10,593 bases of DNA. It comes from Syntrophobacterales bacterium (GTDB lineage Bacteria; Desulfobacterota; Desulfobaccia; Desulfobaccales; 0-14-0-80-60-11). The position numbers and the translations under genes are program-made. Of the stretch, positions 2,551-7,298 are shown in pieces (position 1 is the stretch's first letter; the number at the start of each line of letters is the position of its first letter). The DNA is taken from the NCBI GenBank assembly GCA_020052215.1, contig JAGVPN010000388.1, positions 1-10,593 of the forward strand. The letters are read 5' to 3'. Under the pieces are notes generated by a model. The model had not been told where the DNA came from. It saw nothing but the letters and a program-made list of their open reading frames with translations, and did no database searches.

Positions 2551-2607
2551 ATGGTGGCACCGGCATCTTGCCGGTGCGGTGCACAGGCTGGAAGCCTGTG
2601 CCACCAT
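2551..2607. repeat. Nested palindromic element (two hairpins inside a 10-bp inverted repeat)
   Basis: The outer arms ATGGTGGCAC (2551-2560) and GTGCCACCAT (2598-2607) are perfect inverted repeats. Between and partly overlapping them are two perfect 8-bp hairpins with 3-nt loops: CACCGGCA/TGCCGGTG (2558-2576) and CACAGGCT/AGCCTGTG (2582-2600). The folded shape would be a three-way junction. A related, larger element lies at 3616-3735. The copy here sits between the convergent prfB and methyltransferase genes and may act as a bidirectional transcription barrier, but lacks a T tract. Confidence 0.8.
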
Positions 2608-2651
2608 TGCCAAACAGCATATGCAGGTTGGGCGCCGCCCACCGAAATAAT

Positions 2652-2668
2652 GGCGGGCAGTGCCCGCC
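2652..2668. repeat. GGCGGGCA-G-TGCCCGCC palindrome, copy 1
   Basis: This is a perfect 8-bp inverted repeat around a single G. An identical 17-mer occurs at 3809-3825, also preceded by ATGGC-type context. The two copies bracket the methyltransferase gene. It is a dispersed intergenic palindrome of unknown role. Confidence 0.7.
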
Positions 2669-2752
2669 CCGGCATACTCTCTCTCCACAGGTTTCCCTTT
2701 GTAAAGATTGACTTGAGCGTTCCACCCAACCCGGGCGGCGTTATTTCGGCTT

Positions 2753-3595
2753 TCAGGTGCCGCCGGGTTCGCAGGCCGCCTCTTTTACAGGGGCCGCCGG
2801 CGGTTCGGCTTGGGGGGCGAGGTCGTCCCGGGTCTGGCCGTTCGCCAGTTTTTCCGCATAAAATAAGGCCCCTTCGGTGTAGGGGGAGCTCTTGAAGCCG
2901 GTGTAGCGGCGCAGCGCCACCCGGTGGAAACCGGCCTTGAGCATCAGGGCCAGGAAATCCTTTCCCGGCATGGCCCCGCCGATTCACTGGAACCAATTCT
3001 CCACCTTGCCGGCCTGATCCGGGGGCAGCGCCGCCACCAGGACCATATCGGCCAGCATCAAGCGGCCGCCGGGTTTTAAGACCCGGTGCGCCTCTTCCAG
3101 AGCCTTCTCCTTATTGAGGGTCAGGTTGAAGACGCCGTTACTGATGAGGGCGTCGAAGTGGTTGTCCGGGAAGGGGAGGGCCTCGGCCTCGCCCACCTGA
3201 AAGGTGACGTGGTTAAGACCCAGCCGCGCCTGGTGGCCCCGGGCGCGCTCGACCATGGCCGGGGTGACGTCAAGGCCCACCACCCGGCCGCCGGCCCCCA
3301 CCAGATGGGCCGCCACCAGGGAGTCTACCCCGGCGCCGCAGCCGATGTCCAGGACGGCCTCCCCGGGGTTAAGATGCCCCAGGCTGAAGGGATTGCCCAC
3401 GCCGCAGAAGTCGGCCAGGACCTCCGGGGGGAAATTTTTTAGCACCTCCGGGGGATAACCTTGAATTTCCATGCCGGCTCTGCCGGTGGGATACTGGAAA
3501 CAGCCGCCGGCGCCGGCCGCGGCCACCCGGTCGTACTTTTCCTTGATGCCTTGCCGCACCTGGAGGATTTCCGGTTCAGTCATTTCTGAACTCAT
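2753..3595 (-). CDS. ArsM-like SAM-dependent methyltransferase, candidate selenoprotein (Sec204)
   Basis: I read this as one 280-residue gene interrupted by an in-frame TGA at 2984-2986. The class I SAM-binding fold shows motif [12 protein letters not shown] (81-91), the acidic ribose-binding D109, EALPFPD (138-144) and RVLKPGGRL (171-179). N-terminal landmarks [12 protein letters not shown] (30-41) and FCGVGNPF (63-70) match methyltransferases related to arsenite methyltransferase ArsM. The TGA falls in ENWFQ-TGA-IGGAMP, where homologues have Cys (C-I/L-G/A-G-A), equivalent to a metalloid-binding Cys of ArsM. The protein continues in frame for 76 residues after the TGA without another stop, with family-like LMLKAGF. 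A candidate SECIS follows the TGA. ATG 3595 ([10 protein letters not shown]) is preferred; the longer GTG start at 3625 lies inside a repeat, and ATG 3583 is also possible. The Cys at ArsM SNCVxNL is Gly here (SNGVFNL), so arsenite may not be the substrate. Substrate unknown. Confidence 0.8.
2947..2976 (-). promoter_or_regulatory. Candidate bacterial SECIS element of the methyltransferase
   Basis: Downstream of the TGA at 2986-2984 the mRNA can fold an outer 6-bp stem (GGGCCA with UGGCCC), a 5-nt bulge UGCCG on the 5' side, an inner 5-bp stem (GGAAA with UUUCC) and an apical loop GGA. The loop lies 24-26 nt after the UGA. General rules for bacterial SECIS elements are a loop about 16-37 nt after UGA and G among its first two bases, and both hold here. 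It lacks the GU of the best-known loops, so support is structural rather than by exact motif. Confidence 0.68.
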
Positions 3596-3615
3596 GGCAT
3601 TATCCGTATGCAACT

Positions 3616-3735
3616 TTGGTGGCACAGGCTTTCCAGCCTGTGGGGCGGTAGGGTGCGTCTCCCGCGCCCGTTATGGTGCGTAGAACGCACCCTACCTGTC
3701 TGTGTGAAGCACCGGCAAGATGCCGGTGCCACCAA
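3616..3735. repeat. Composite nested palindromic element (three hairpins inside TTGGTGGCAC arms)
   Basis: The outer arms TTGGTGGCAC (3616-3625) and GTGCCACCAA (3726-3735) enclose three inner inverted repeats. These are CACAGGCT/AGCCTGTG (3623-3642), GTAGGGTGCGT/ACGCACCCTAC (3648-3695, itself holding GGTGCGT-aga-ACGCACC) and CACCGGCA/TGCCGGTG (3710-3728). Arms and two hairpins are shared with the 57-bp element at 2551-2607 in swapped order. It looks as if a third palindrome was inserted into an element of that type. It lies just upstream of the methyltransferase start and would supply a spurious GTG start. Confidence 0.8.
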
Positions 3736-3808
3736 GAACTTTTTAGAACAGTCGCACCTGGGTCTTTGGCCCACCCGTAAAACCTGAAAAAGTGGAGGTC
3801 GTAATGAT

Positions 3809-3825
3809 GGCGGGCAGTGCCCGCC
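3809..3825. repeat. GGCGGGCA-G-TGCCCGCC palindrome, copy 2
   Basis: Identical 17-bp palindrome to 2652-2668, on the other side of the methyltransferase gene, followed by CTACA as is common for dispersed copies of such repeats. Confidence 0.7.
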
Positions 3826-3872
3826 CTACATGTAACATTTCGGAGCGCAACAGCCGGGGCGGCTGTTTCACG

Positions 3873-3906
3873 GAAAACAGAAAACAGAAAACAGAAAACG
3901 GAAAAC
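3873..3906. repeat. Tandem 7-mer repeat (GAAAACA)n
   Basis: Four units of GAAAAC plus one base (A, A, A, then G) followed by a final GAAAAC form a simple tandem array of almost five units. On the minus strand it reads GTTTTCT repeated, just after the flavin reductase stop. It is a slippage-prone microsatellite in non-coding DNA with no evident role. Confidence 0.8.
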
Positions 3907-3932
3907 CTTTCAAAACAGGTCGATCTCGGCCA

Positions 3933-4502
3933 TCACATGAGATCCCGGCCGATGGCGAAGGCCTGGCCCAAAAACTTCCCGATGCCGTGATAGGTGCGGA
4001 TCTCCGGGCCGAAGACGATGGGCCGGGCTTTTTCGATATCCGGGAAGCCTTTCTCGCCCAGGATGTGCTCATCGGCCTTGACGTCCAAAATCTCCCCGAT
4101 GAACAGGGTGTGGAGGCCGATTTCCAGGGTATGGATCACCCGGCACTCCAGGATCAGGGGAAATTCCGCCACATAGGGGGCGTCCACCAGGTCGCTGCCC
4201 ACCGGGGTGAGGCGGGTGGCGGCGAACTTATTCACGTCTTTGCCCGTGGCCATGCCCAGGTAGTCGGCTTCCCGGACGTGGTCCTCGGAGGGCACGCTGA
4301 TGGTGAAGGCCTGGCGCGCCACCAGGTTGCCGTAGGAATAAGTTGCTTTGCGCAGCGACACCCCGATGGCCGGGGGCTTGGAGCAGCAAATGGAGGCCCA
4401 GGCCGCGGTCATGGCGTTGGGCTTGCCTTCCTGGTCATAGGTCCCCACTACCCACACCGGGGTGGGAAAAGCCATAGTCCGGGGGCCGATGGATTTTTTC
4501 AT
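3933..4502 (-). CDS. Flavin reductase family protein (flavoredoxin-like)
   Basis: This is a 189-residue cytoplasmic FMN-binding split-barrel protein of the flavin reductase domain family, closest in feel to flavoredoxin of sulfate reducers. It would bind FMN and pass electrons from NAD(P)H or a partner redox protein. Family landmarks are AFPTPVWVVGTYD (11-23), GKPNAMTAAWASICCSKPP (26-44), SYGNLVARQAFTISVPSEDHV, DYLGMATGKDVNKFA and HTLFIGEILDVKAD. The start is ATG 4502, with AGGAGG six bases upstream. A longer open frame extends upstream to 4871, but it is antisense shadow of the Hdr-like gene and lacks family similarity. It lies downstream of the Hdr-like gene, separated by a strong terminator, so it needs its own promoter, which I could not pinpoint. 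A C-terminal fragment of a second member of this family lies at 9495-9617. Confidence 0.88.
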   Translation of the reverse strand: MKKSIGPRTMAFPTPVWVVGTYDQEGKPNAMTAAWASICCSKPPAIGVSLRKATYSYGNLVARQAFTISVPSEDHVREADYLGMATGKDVNKFAATRLTPVGSDLVDAPYVAEFPLILECRVIHTLEIGLHTLFIGEILDVKADEHILGEKGFPDIEKARPIVFGPEIRTYHGIGKFLGQAFAIGRDLM

Positions 4503-4589
4503 GATGATCCTCCTCTGCCTGGATGTTAAGTCTTGTGGGAGAAAAAGCAATACCGGAGGCCAGCAAAGACCGGGTTCCGCCTCCTCCAC

Positions 4590-4625
4590 AAAAAGAGCCT
4601 GGAGAACGAAAAATTCTCCAGGCTC
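4590..4625 (-). terminator. Intrinsic terminator of the Hdr-like gene
   Basis: A perfect 12-bp stem (GAGCCTGGAGAA with TTCTCCAGGCTC, 4595-4606 and 4614-4625) with a 7-nt loop is followed on the minus strand by five T residues (4594-4590). It begins 41 bp after the Hdr-like stop codon and precedes the flavin reductase gene. This is a textbook Rho-independent terminator, implying that transcription of the Hdr-like gene ends here. Confidence 0.92.
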
Positions 4626-4666
4626 AGAAGGTGCTCCGGCGCGGTGGTGCGGTTCAGGCCGCCGGC

Positions 4667-6004
4667 TTATTCCTCTTCTTCCAGTTCGACCCCGTCCCGC
4701 TCGAACTGGGCGTCGCGGGCGGCGTGGCCCGCTTCGATCTCCGCTTCGCTCCAGGGTTCGAAGTCCAGGCAGAGGGAGACCAGTTCCCACAGGTACAGGG
4801 TCTCTTTGTAGTTGCCCATGTCGTGGACCTTGGGGAGGGCTTTCATGATCTGGTCCCGGCAGTTGTGGCACGGGGCGACAACGATCTCGGCCCCGGTGTC
4901 CTTGATCTGGTCGGCCTTCATCTTGCCGTAGGCCAGACGCTCATCGTCGTAGGGCATGGCCCAGGCGCCGCCACCGGCCCCGCAGCACAGGTTGTTCATC
5001 GAGTCTTCGCACATTTCCCGGTAGAGGCTGGGGTCGATGCACTGCTGGGCGATCCAGCGGGATTGGTCGGCGGTGGACTGCCCAAAGGCCATCTGGGATT
5101 TGCGCACGTAGTTGCACGGGTCGTGGACCGTGTAGGCTTCATGATACTTATGCGTGTTCAGCTTGATCCGGCCGGATTTGATGTACTCCTCCAGCAGATC
5201 CATGACGCTGACTACCTTGAATTCATCGTAAACTTCCGGAAACCAATTTTTGAACCCGAACCGGGTTGCATAGTAGGCATGCCCTCATTCGGGGTACAAA
5301 ATTGTTTTACACTTAAGTCGTCGGGCATTCTCGATTACCCGGGCGACCTGCTCCTTCATGGAGGGGTCGTCCCCGGAGAACAGGCCCCAGTTGACCCCTT
5401 CCCAATTGGTGGAGGAGACGGTCCAATCTTCCTTGGCGGCATAGAAGATCTTCCACCAGAACTTCATGTCGTCCGGCTCGCCGAAGGGTTCCTTGGAGTT
5501 GATGGTGACGATGATGTTGGCCCCTTCCTTGTCCACCGGCACGTAAAAGCCGGGGGTGGGCTGCTCTTCGTCGTTTTCCATCTCCACGCCCAATTCCGCC
5601 AGCAGGAACAAAAAGTCGTCCCTGGGGATCCCGAGATTGTTGCCCCTCTGGAGGTTCATCATGGTGCCCTTGTGGATGGGGCCGGGCACCTTGTCCCGCT
5701 CCCGCAAGGTGCGGCAGGTCCGGAAGGTCCGCATCAACTGGATGCCCATGGGGCACTGATACTGGCAGCGGCCGCACAGGGTGCAGACCCAGGGCCACTT
5801 GGAATCAATGACTTCCTGCTCCATGCCCAGGACAATGGCCCGGATGGCCTTCCGGGGGTCCCAGCCGGGAACCAGCCCGGTGGCGGGGCAACCGCCGGCG
5901 CAGGTGCCACAGGTATAGCAGCGATCCGCCAACTCGGGAGCGATGTTCCCGATTTTGCGGTGCTTCCTGTCCACCTTGATTTCTTTTACGGCCTCTTCTG
6001 GCAT
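4667..6004 (-). CDS. HdrD/DsrK-like iron-sulfur protein, candidate selenoprotein (Sec240)
   Basis: I read this as one 445-residue gene crossing an in-frame TGA at 5285-5287. The N-terminal half carries two ferredoxin-type [4Fe-4S] motifs, C29-C32-C35-C39-P and C74-C77-C80-C84-P, like HdrC. The C-terminal half is HdrB/CCG-like, with C297 in HDPCNY, C340-C341-G in LCCGAGGG, and C379/C382 in PCHNC. The TGA lies in ILYPE-TGA-GHAYYATRFG, exactly where DsrK/HmcF-type and GlpC/HdrD proteins have the Cys of ECGHA or CPxC; the frame then runs on without gap to WFPEVYDEF. A candidate SECIS follows. There is no signal peptide or membrane segment, so it should be cytoplasmic, unlike membrane DsrMKJOP. 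The start is ATG 6004 after GGAGGG. It has its own promoter and terminator. The first CCG motif is otherwise degenerate, as in DsrK. The likely role is electron transfer or thiol/disulfide redox chemistry; partner and substrate are unknown. Confidence 0.85.
5253..5267 (-). promoter_or_regulatory. Candidate bacterial SECIS element of the Hdr-like gene
   Basis: After the TGA at 5287-5285 the mRNA forms a perfect 5-bp stem AACCC/GGGUU with the pentaloop GGUUC. The loop lies 23-27 nt downstream of the UGA, inside the window used by bacterial SECIS elements. It begins with GGU, the same core as the SelB-binding loop of E. coli fdhF (AGGUCU). The lower stem is poorly paired, which is tolerated in bacterial elements. 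Confidence 0.78.
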
Positions 6005-6192
6005 TTTCCCTCCAAGTAAATTGTGATTAGTATAATCCCAATTGACGACCGGCCCGGGCTTGGTGCGCCCTGAGGCTGATCGCCAGGTTAAAGACTTCCC
6101 TTAATGATCTGAGGCGGTTCTTACCTTGGCCCCTGTTGGTTATATATAAAATTTTCGCCGAAAAATAAAGAGTTTTTCCTCCCTGCTCTTTG

Positions 6193-6578: not shown

Positions 6579-7298
6579 ATGTTGATGCATCGCACTTGTT
6601 GCCTCTGGTTTATCGGCTTGCTTTTGGGATTGGTGATTTTCAACCCTCTGAACCCGGCCCCGGCCGGAGCGACCTGGATCACCGTGTACGAAAATGATTT
6701 TCAAACGCCGGTGGGCTCTGAGTGGACTTCCAGCGGCACCGCCATCCATACCGAGGCCACCCCCTTACCTTCGGACGGGTCGCGTATTTTCCTGGGCCAG
6801 TTCAGCAACGACACGGTGAGTCTGTCCCTCTCCGGCCTGCCTGCCCACACCCAGGCGCGCCTCTCTTTCGATCTATACGTCATCGCATCCTGGGACGGCT
6901 GGCCTAGTAATGCGCCCATTGAGATCTGGGACCTTTCCATTGCCGGCGGGGGGAACATTATAAAAACCGGCTTTGCCAATATTGAGGGAAGGAATCAATA
7001 CTATCCCGGTACGTACCCTGGCGGTTCCAACCCCGCGCGCACCGGGGCCTCGGAAAACAACACCCTGGGCTTCCTCCCGTATGGGGACTCGGTTTATAAT
7101 TTTAGCTTCGAGGTGCCACACTCAGCCGGTTCCGTGGTGTTCCAATTCACCGCCTCTGGCCTCCAGGATATCGCCGACGAAAGCTGGGGCCTGGACAATG
7201 TGAAGGTGGAGGTGGTTCCCCTGCCCTCCACCCTGCTCCTTTTGGGTTCCGGGTTGCTGGGTTTGGCGGGGTTGCGCCTGAGGTTCCGGAAGGGTTAA
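6579..7298 (+). CDS. PEP-CTERM sorting-signal surface protein
   Basis: This is a 239-residue exported protein of unknown function. It begins with a Sec signal peptide (hydrophobic residues about 9-23, predicted cut near PAGA-TW). It ends in a PEP-CTERM-type tripartite tail: VPLPS motif, hydrophobic segment LLLLGSGLLGLAGL, and basic RLRFRKG. Such tails direct proteins to exosortase/EpsH processing in Gram-negative bacteria that make exopolysaccharide. The mature part is Gly/Ser/Asn/Trp-rich and looks like a beta-sandwich, with ENDFQTP and WGLDNVKVEVVP, as in carbohydrate-binding or discoidin-like PEP-CTERM proteins. The start is ATG 6579 with GGGAGGG 11 bp upstream; an earlier ATG at 6568 hits a stop after five codons. 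No exosortase gene is in the window. The VPLP form of the motif is common in this lineage. Confidence 0.85.
   Translation: MLMHRTCCLWFIGLLLGLVIFNPLNPAPAGATWITVYENDFQTPVGSEWTSSGTAIHTEATPLPSDGSRIFLGQFSNDTVSLSLSGLPAHTQARLSFDLYVIASWDGWPSNAPIEIWDLSIAGGGNIIKTGFANIEGRNQYYPGTYPGGSNPARTGASENNTLGFLPYGDSVYNFSFEVPHSAGSVVFQFTASGLQDIADESWGLDNVKVEVVPLPSTLLLLGSGLLGLAGLRLRFRKG

Follow-up and report, generated by a model that had tools for sequence, protein, structure and literature searches.

Related selenoproteins and iron-sulfur proteins

A selenoprotein family described as "Fe-S oxidoreductase-like (GlpC)", with the motif UGH, has already been published (PMC13188914, PMC1794560), and the passage of PMC13188914 concerned with it places the "Fe-S oxidoreductase-like protein, PTHR43551, UGH" among the selenoproteins predicted with high confidence, citing Kryukov and Gladyshev 2004. 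The same UGH family also appears in the selenoprotein list of PMC9312934, and the HdrD4 of Desulfobacterium autotrophicum HRM2 is counted among selenocysteine (Sec) proteins in the relevant part of PMC2702500. As for the iron-sulfur centers, the section of PMC13083937 dealing with EtfD assigns its non-cubane [4Fe-4S] cluster to C637, C672, C673, C709, and C712, with His583 of the first CCG half as the sixth ligand, and describes the EtfD homologues FadF and DgcB as being without the first-half cluster cysteines.

Here, we describe a gene whose product fits the predicted UGH "Fe-S oxidoreductase-like / GlpC" family, to which it was matched by motif and description (reference member WP_174406253.1). 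The window, that is, the whole stretch of 10,593 nucleotides that was analyzed, is contig C37 of a Syntrophobacterales draft genome of 2.83 Mb in 514 contigs, 73% complete, and its nearest named relatives are drafts labelled Deltaproteobacteria, Desulfobaccales, Desulfobacca acetoxidans, Syntrophales, or Syntrophobacterales.

One reading frame through an in-frame TGA

The gene lies on the minus strand at 4667..6004, with a Shine-Dalgarno-like GGAGGG (6008..6013, minus strand) 3 nt ahead of its ATG, and encodes an HdrD-like iron-sulfur protein of 445 residues followed by a TAA stop, with a single interrupting TGA. A preliminary description of this DNA had proposed that two minus-strand frames join here through one TGA, and this was borne out, given that frames 6004-5288 and 5284-4667 are in phase through the TGA at 5287-5285 (codon 240, 5285..5287 on the minus strand, motif PEUGHA) and together make up the 445 codons. 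A mechanical ORF listing returns two ORFs instead, the second beginning at ATG 5203, which a weak AAGG precedes by 11 nt. The 27 codons from the TGA to this ATG are conserved as protein, with 90 synonymous vs. 46 non-synonymous differing codons of 459 in a comparison of 17 close, hand-picked loci. It had also been anticipated that standard annotation would split the gene, and indeed the database proteins P0006, P0016, and P0067 all end at the Glu preceding the TGA; P0006, labelled "MAG: 4Fe-4S dicluster domain-containing protein [Desulfobaccales bacterium]", has 245 aa and 29 member sequences, and matches with 89% identity across 54% of the query. Very probably, the gene encodes one protein with selenocysteine at the internal TGA.

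Relatives were sought in a collection of genomes with six short peptide patterns taken from the protein, none of which spans codon 240, and 71 loci were obtained. One of these peptide patterns, residues 249-256, is in part encoded by the 3' arm of the hairpin described below, and the null model used for that hairpin holds the protein fixed. Codon 240 is readable in 70 of the 71 loci (L079 ends short of it and was excluded), being TGA in 68 and TGC in 2, and the TGA recurs in separate assemblies, including those of Desulfoprunum benzoelyticum DSM 28570 (L056) and Desulfogranum marinum DSM 2058 (L055). Among the 22 genomes of the window's family, its own included, 20 carry an orthologue of at least 74% identity whose only internal stop is a TGA, and this count overlaps with that of the 71 loci because many of the genomes are the same assemblies. 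Of the two family genomes outside this count, G006 offers just a paralogue of 45% identity, with Cys; in G010, a paralogue of 45% identity is accompanied by contig-end fragments that cover residues 1-43 and are 91% identical. A search of 297 phylum genomes with P0029, which is fused to a helix-turn-helix (HTH) domain, returned 30 loci, where a TGA was found inside the match in 25, no stop in 4, and only a TAG in 1, with the TGA counted anywhere within the match and some of the loci lying on the same contigs as the 71.

According to the preliminary description, the TGA replaces a conserved Cys before GHA, and the homologues agree with this: where column 240 is not Sec, it is Cys in 96 of 119 rows among the matches listed, a full-length homologue of 70% identity (P0002) has Cys there, and so does the genome's own DsrK. 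Copies with TGC and with TGA coexist in two draft genomes (L061/L069 and L064/L068, judged to be the same genome by record prefix and isolate name).

Selenocysteine machinery and a second selenoprotein gene

The host genome contains selA (570.3 bits, cut-off 267.9), selB (365.9, cut-off 242.25), and a tRNA-Sec of 74.7 bits (cut-off 47), which ARAGORN also called as tRNA-SeC with anticodon tca, so the machinery whose presence was to be checked is largely in place. For selD, there is no match over the cut-off in this 73% complete genome, and a C-terminal piece of 91 residues is found at the end of contig C273 (SelD NF002098 40.8 bits, cut-off 299). A contrast between genomes by selA is uninformative, since 47 of 50 genomes are over the cut-off, including the nine picked as being without an in-frame TGA at the site among the matches listed (G006, G035, G060, G071, G107, G129, G166, G181, and G294). 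The three genomes where selA is not over the cut-off (G012, G026, and G097) are 62-81% complete and have TGA genes.

The window holds a second gene of this kind at 2744-3625 on the minus strand, a methyltransferase/UXPK-star double selenoprotein with TGAs at 2986-2984 and 2755-2753. Read through both TGAs, it is a full-length match to NF047649 with 517.2 bits (cut-off 460), and ended at the first TGA, where mechanical ORF calling halts, it gives 375.5. In all, therefore, the window has two genes with three probable Sec codons between them, and the Sec reading of 4667..6004 is supported by this neighbor. Release factor 2 competes with Sec insertion at TGA, and the plus-strand gene at 1523-2515 in the window resembles, as we presume, release factor 2 (prfB).

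The SECIS-like hairpin behind the TGA

A bacterial SECIS-like hairpin, AACCC-GGTTC-GGGTT, is located at 5253..5267 on the minus strand and begins 18 nt past the TGA, with AACCC at 5267-5263, the loop GGTTC at 5262-5258, GGGTT at 5257-5253, and a possible sixth pair, G5262-C5258; both the 5-bp stem and the GGUUC loop 23-27 nt downstream of the TGA had been described correctly. Taken alone, the window hairpin is unremarkable (0.074 under a synonymous-codon null; stem p 0.075, folding energy p 0.040), and Rfam returned no match at the hairpin and five sub-threshold matches elsewhere in 2600-6100. Among relatives, a complete hairpin in one of two registers is present in 67 of 68 TGA rows, these being 67 loci plus the window, with the chimeric L077 left out. 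Counting distinct rows, 56 of 57 have the complete hairpin vs. 2.1 +/- 1.4 under synonymous recoding (maximum 7 in 400 trials), the two registers having been read off the data and applied equally to the null. In columns counted from the T of the TGA, 21-25 pairs with 31-35 in 33 of the 68 rows and 21-24 with 31-34 in 34, and L036 matches neither register and has another stem. Loop columns 26-27 are GG in 66 rows and GT and AG in the other two, so that all 68 have at least one G. These rows are phylogenetically related, and the counts are thus not independent events.

In the subgroup of the second register (24 distinct rows), three of five pairs and 16 cells are changed on both sides; in 500 shuffles, the covariation score and the cell count were never reached, and the pair count was reached in 9. 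The window's own hairpin subgroup has no double-sided pair change, with four of six pairs invariant and two varying on one side. The all-row recoding test, which took in every row but L077, is more trustworthy than these two alignments (A3 and A4, of 24 and 25 rows), because their rows were selected by hairpin register. As for the TGC copies, L061 (codon at 4703) retains the five stem pairs and L064 (codon at 2543) four of five, neither of them with a G at the loop start, which is suggestive of a fossil SECIS left behind after a change from Sec to Cys.

Given that the TGA is kept, the hairpin is kept, the 27 codons behind the TGA are conserved, the Sec machinery is present, and the paralogues have Cys, we read codon 240 as selenocysteine. 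The product would almost certainly be a single, soluble 445-residue Fe-S protein in which SelB and tRNA-Sec insert Sec240 by means of the downstream hairpin.

Domains, cluster ligands, and identity

The protein was described as collinear with the Hdr/DsrK/GlpC architecture, and it has in fact two [4Fe-4S] motifs and then a CCG domain, in the same order. The first motif (C29, C32, C35, and C39; 5888..5920, minus strand) is over the cut-off of Fer4_8, and its cysteines are Cys in all 183 rows with a letter, of 184, among the matches listed; the second (C74, C77, C80, and C84; 5753..5785, minus strand) is Cys in 184 of 184 rows among the same matches. The complete CCG domain (C297, C340-C341, and C379xxC382; 4859..5116, minus strand) matches PF02754 with 33.1 bits (cut-off 20.6) and is a probable non-cubane [4Fe-4S] site; among the matches listed, C297, C340, and C341 are conserved in 184 of 184 rows, and C379 and C382 in 183 of the 183 with a letter. 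The N-terminal half matches the HdrC chains of solved structures, and the CCG profile aligns to EtfD 9ojn. Judging by its sequence, the protein is thus an HdrC-like part plus one complete CCG domain: there is only one PF02754 match, and the first CCG half is degenerate and without a CCG motif, so it does not have the two complete halves of the HdrB type.

It had been claimed that residue 240 belongs to the CxxC end of a CCG domain, and here the profile comparisons gave no support. In the full comparison with HdrB/EtfD, the C-terminal CCG half alone was aligned (probability 96.3%), and hhalign of the excised first half against HdrB/EtfD was not significant (probability 0.2%) and left the two loops unpaired with each other. 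The Sec column reads ECGHM in the own-genome DsrK (contig C153; 432.5 bits, cut-off 400), TECGHA in HmcF-type relatives, and PDCGG in a Cys paralogue. GlpC proper, the glycerol-3-phosphate dehydrogenase subunit C, was rejected as an identity, with TIGR03379 at 15.3 bits vs. a cut-off of 279.9.

Gene neighborhood

Next downstream in the window, on the same strand, is a flavin reductase-like gene (3933-4502, PF01613), and the upstream ORF on the opposite strand (6579-7298) has no Pfam match. No HdrA-like or hydrogenase gene was recognized beside the Sec gene in the window, L009, or L014. Elsewhere, an HdrA-like gene lies directly downstream in at least 13 of the 71 loci (including the chimeric L077 and the TGC copy L061) and upstream in at least three, and a hydrogenase maturation protease gene lies directly upstream in at least 15 of the 71, e.g., L013 (G012:C62), L020 (G009:C4), and L016 (G013:C99), all of these being lower bounds because the ORF calls are mechanical and many flanks are short. 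One HdrA-like representative scored 851.6 bits with NF040770 HdrA2, below the cut-off of 1100, and one protease representative 115.6 bits with TIGR00072 (cut-off 47.45). Sulfhydrogenase beta- and gamma-like genes, below their cut-offs, occur upstream in a total of seven loci, each of the two kinds in six of them, and we assume that these neighbors resemble Flx proteins. The preliminary term "stand-alone DsrK-like" does too little justice to those relatives that are linked to HdrA-like and hydrogenase genes.

A PF00374 hydrogenase large-subunit match with one TGA shares the contig of the Sec gene in four of 22 family genomes (G005, G013, G014, and G018), at a distance of 1.3 to 7.2 kb; the other 18 have no PF00374 on that contig among the matches listed, or no full Sec gene. 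G012:C62 and G009:C4, with the maturation protease upstream, have no PF00374 large subunit among the matches listed. Several HdrA-like matches occur in the window's own genome; all of them stay under the NF041778 cut-off, and one (C22) contains a TGA. In Desulforhabdus sp. TSK (L077, near 4694), the frame past EUGHAYY continues as a stretch that we take to be like the FAD domain of HdrA, and it stops after 31 residues; either a deletion fused two neighboring genes or the assembly is at fault.

Variation at column 240

The 184 aligned rows are made up of the window itself, 66 of the loci, and 117 proteins from the 120 that were listed out of 930 matches; L049, L065, and L072 (truncated), L077 (chimeric), and P0006, P0016, and P0067 (ending at the TGA) were left out of the tree. 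Among the matches listed, column 240 is Sec in 65 rows, Cys in 96, and another residue (Ser, Gly, Leu, Ile, Ala, Thr, or Val) in 23, which all retain the cluster cysteines; the protein database search behind these numbers is biased toward Cys over Sec homologues, because Sec homologues stored in truncated form, being shorter, mostly rank low or fall outside. Since these 23 rows vary with intact cluster cysteines, the clusters can probably do without residue 240. In a FastTree tree built without column 240, parsimony requires, among the matches listed, at least 8 changes between Sec and non-Sec, and at least 17 when three states are distinguished.

An N-terminal HTH_17 domain characterizes one branch of the tree, and by motif search it occurs in 113 of 184 rows among the matches listed, 13 of them Sec. 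Also among these matches, all 23 rows that are neither Sec nor Cys fall in one 118-row, mostly HTH-fused branch, 22 of the 23 with the HTH motif and none in the window's branch. Fusions of an N-terminal excisionase-like helix-turn-helix with Sec are found in L050-L058, L066, L068, L070, and L075, where the HTH domain is possibly a redox-responsive regulator or a docking domain; for this branch, one narrow full-text literature search yielded only an apparently unrelated paper.

Alternative explanations

Were the TGA a true stop, the locus would encode two proteins or be a pseudogene, in keeping with the two mechanical ORFs, the ATG 5203 with its weak AAGG, and the 245-248-aa pieces held in databases; this is very improbable given the 68 of 70 relatives with TGA, the 27 codons conserved as protein behind it, and the retained hairpin. 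A sequencing or assembly error for TGC or TGT, conceivable in a draft of 514 contigs and 73% completeness, is the most improbable reading of all, as the identical TGA occurs in separate assemblies, two DSM strains among them. An orthologue of DsrK, HmcF, or TmcB from a sulfate-respiration membrane complex would have the identical domain order, and NCBIfam does give HmcF 183.4, TmcB 153, and DsrK 135.9 bits, but these are far under the cut-offs (NF045711 750, NF045724 735, and NF045796 400, respectively) and the genome already has its own DsrK with Cys at 432.5 bits, so that this identity is highly unlikely. We reject all three on this evidence.

The remaining alternative concerns what Sec240 does rather than whether it is there. 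The protein could be an electron relay like EtfD or FadF, with a non-catalytic Sec or Cys that merely tunes or caps the CCG cluster, as would suit a column that accepts other residues in 23 of 184 rows among the matches listed, and the EtfD section of PMC13083937, which terms the equivalent cluster non-catalytic and capped by His583. Against this, the variant rows are confined, among the matches listed, to the mostly HTH-fused branch, away from that of the window, and Sec was gained or lost repeatedly, with the at least eight parsimony changes noted above. We consider the relay the less probable reading, albeit one with real weight. As a whole, the best explanation, and in our opinion quite a likely one, is a UGH-family selenoprotein that would act as an HdrC-HdrB-type module with a reactive Sec240.

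Proposed mechanism

For this module, we propose that the two N-terminal [4Fe-4S] clusters would relay electrons between an HdrA-type flavoprotein and the non-cubane [4Fe-4S] cluster, which C297, C340, C341, C379, and C382 would hold. The first CCG half is degenerate, and a loop in it may place Sec240 next to the cluster, where it could break or make a disulfide as a selenolate or else serve as an additional, exchangeable ligand. Sec240 is proposed to face the cluster because the CCG cysteines match their counterparts in EtfD, where His583 of the first half caps the cluster; visual comparison puts U240 at His583 or next to it, and the profile comparison gave no confirmation of this position. 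On such a fused HdrC-HdrB-type module, with electrons passing between HdrA and the cluster and the selenolate acting on a disulfide or as a ligand, our judgment is evenly balanced. We infer that the function would be that of a disulfide-active or electron-carrying partner of HdrA.

More tentatively, and rather against our expectation, column 240 might be a swappable redox cap over the non-cubane [4Fe-4S] cluster. The column would have moved repeatedly among Sec, Cys, and redox-inert residues while the ligands were kept, so that one scaffold would be a thiol/disulfide enzyme in some lineages and a plain electron carrier in others, and the HTH-fused branch might be a redox-responsive regulator. 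The natural Sec, Cys, and Ser/Gly/Leu variants with unchanged ligands offer a direct test of what selenium contributes beside a non-cubane cluster. Although the gene as a whole is a moderate to low surprise, we regard this natural variation at a single site as the most useful result.

Comparison with known systems

DsrK, HmcF, and TmcB share with the window protein the two [4Fe-4S] motifs followed by a CCG domain, but the DsrK/HmcF-type proteins have Cys at the Sec column and the window protein stays below their curated cut-offs. With HdrB/HdrC (5odc) and mycobacterial EtfD (9ojn), the HdrC-like N-terminus and one CCG domain align, whereas HdrB has two complete CCG halves where the first half of the window protein is degenerate, and EtfD differs by its membrane helices and its linear [3Fe-4S] cluster. 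HdrD4 of strain HRM2 is likened to it by its description in the relevant part of PMC2702500, as a soluble, Sec-containing protein of a sulfate reducer in which HdrC- and HdrB-type parts are fused.

The UGH family (COG0247/PTHR43551) differs in that the window gene is without recognized hdrA or frh neighbors, and it agrees in the UGH motif, the Fe-S oxidoreductase architecture, the deltaproteobacterial hosts, and the HdrA/hydrogenase context of some relatives. The gene, which occurs in 20 of 22 family genomes and probably contributes to energy metabolism there, is easily overlooked, because P0006, P0016, and P0067 stop at the TGA. Its novelty is lower than the preliminary description implied, because the UGH family already stands in published selenoprotein tables. 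In summary, the family is known, and what is new here is the fixed cluster cysteines vs. the variable Sec column, the HdrA-like and hydrogenase-maturation neighbors, and the HTH fusion.
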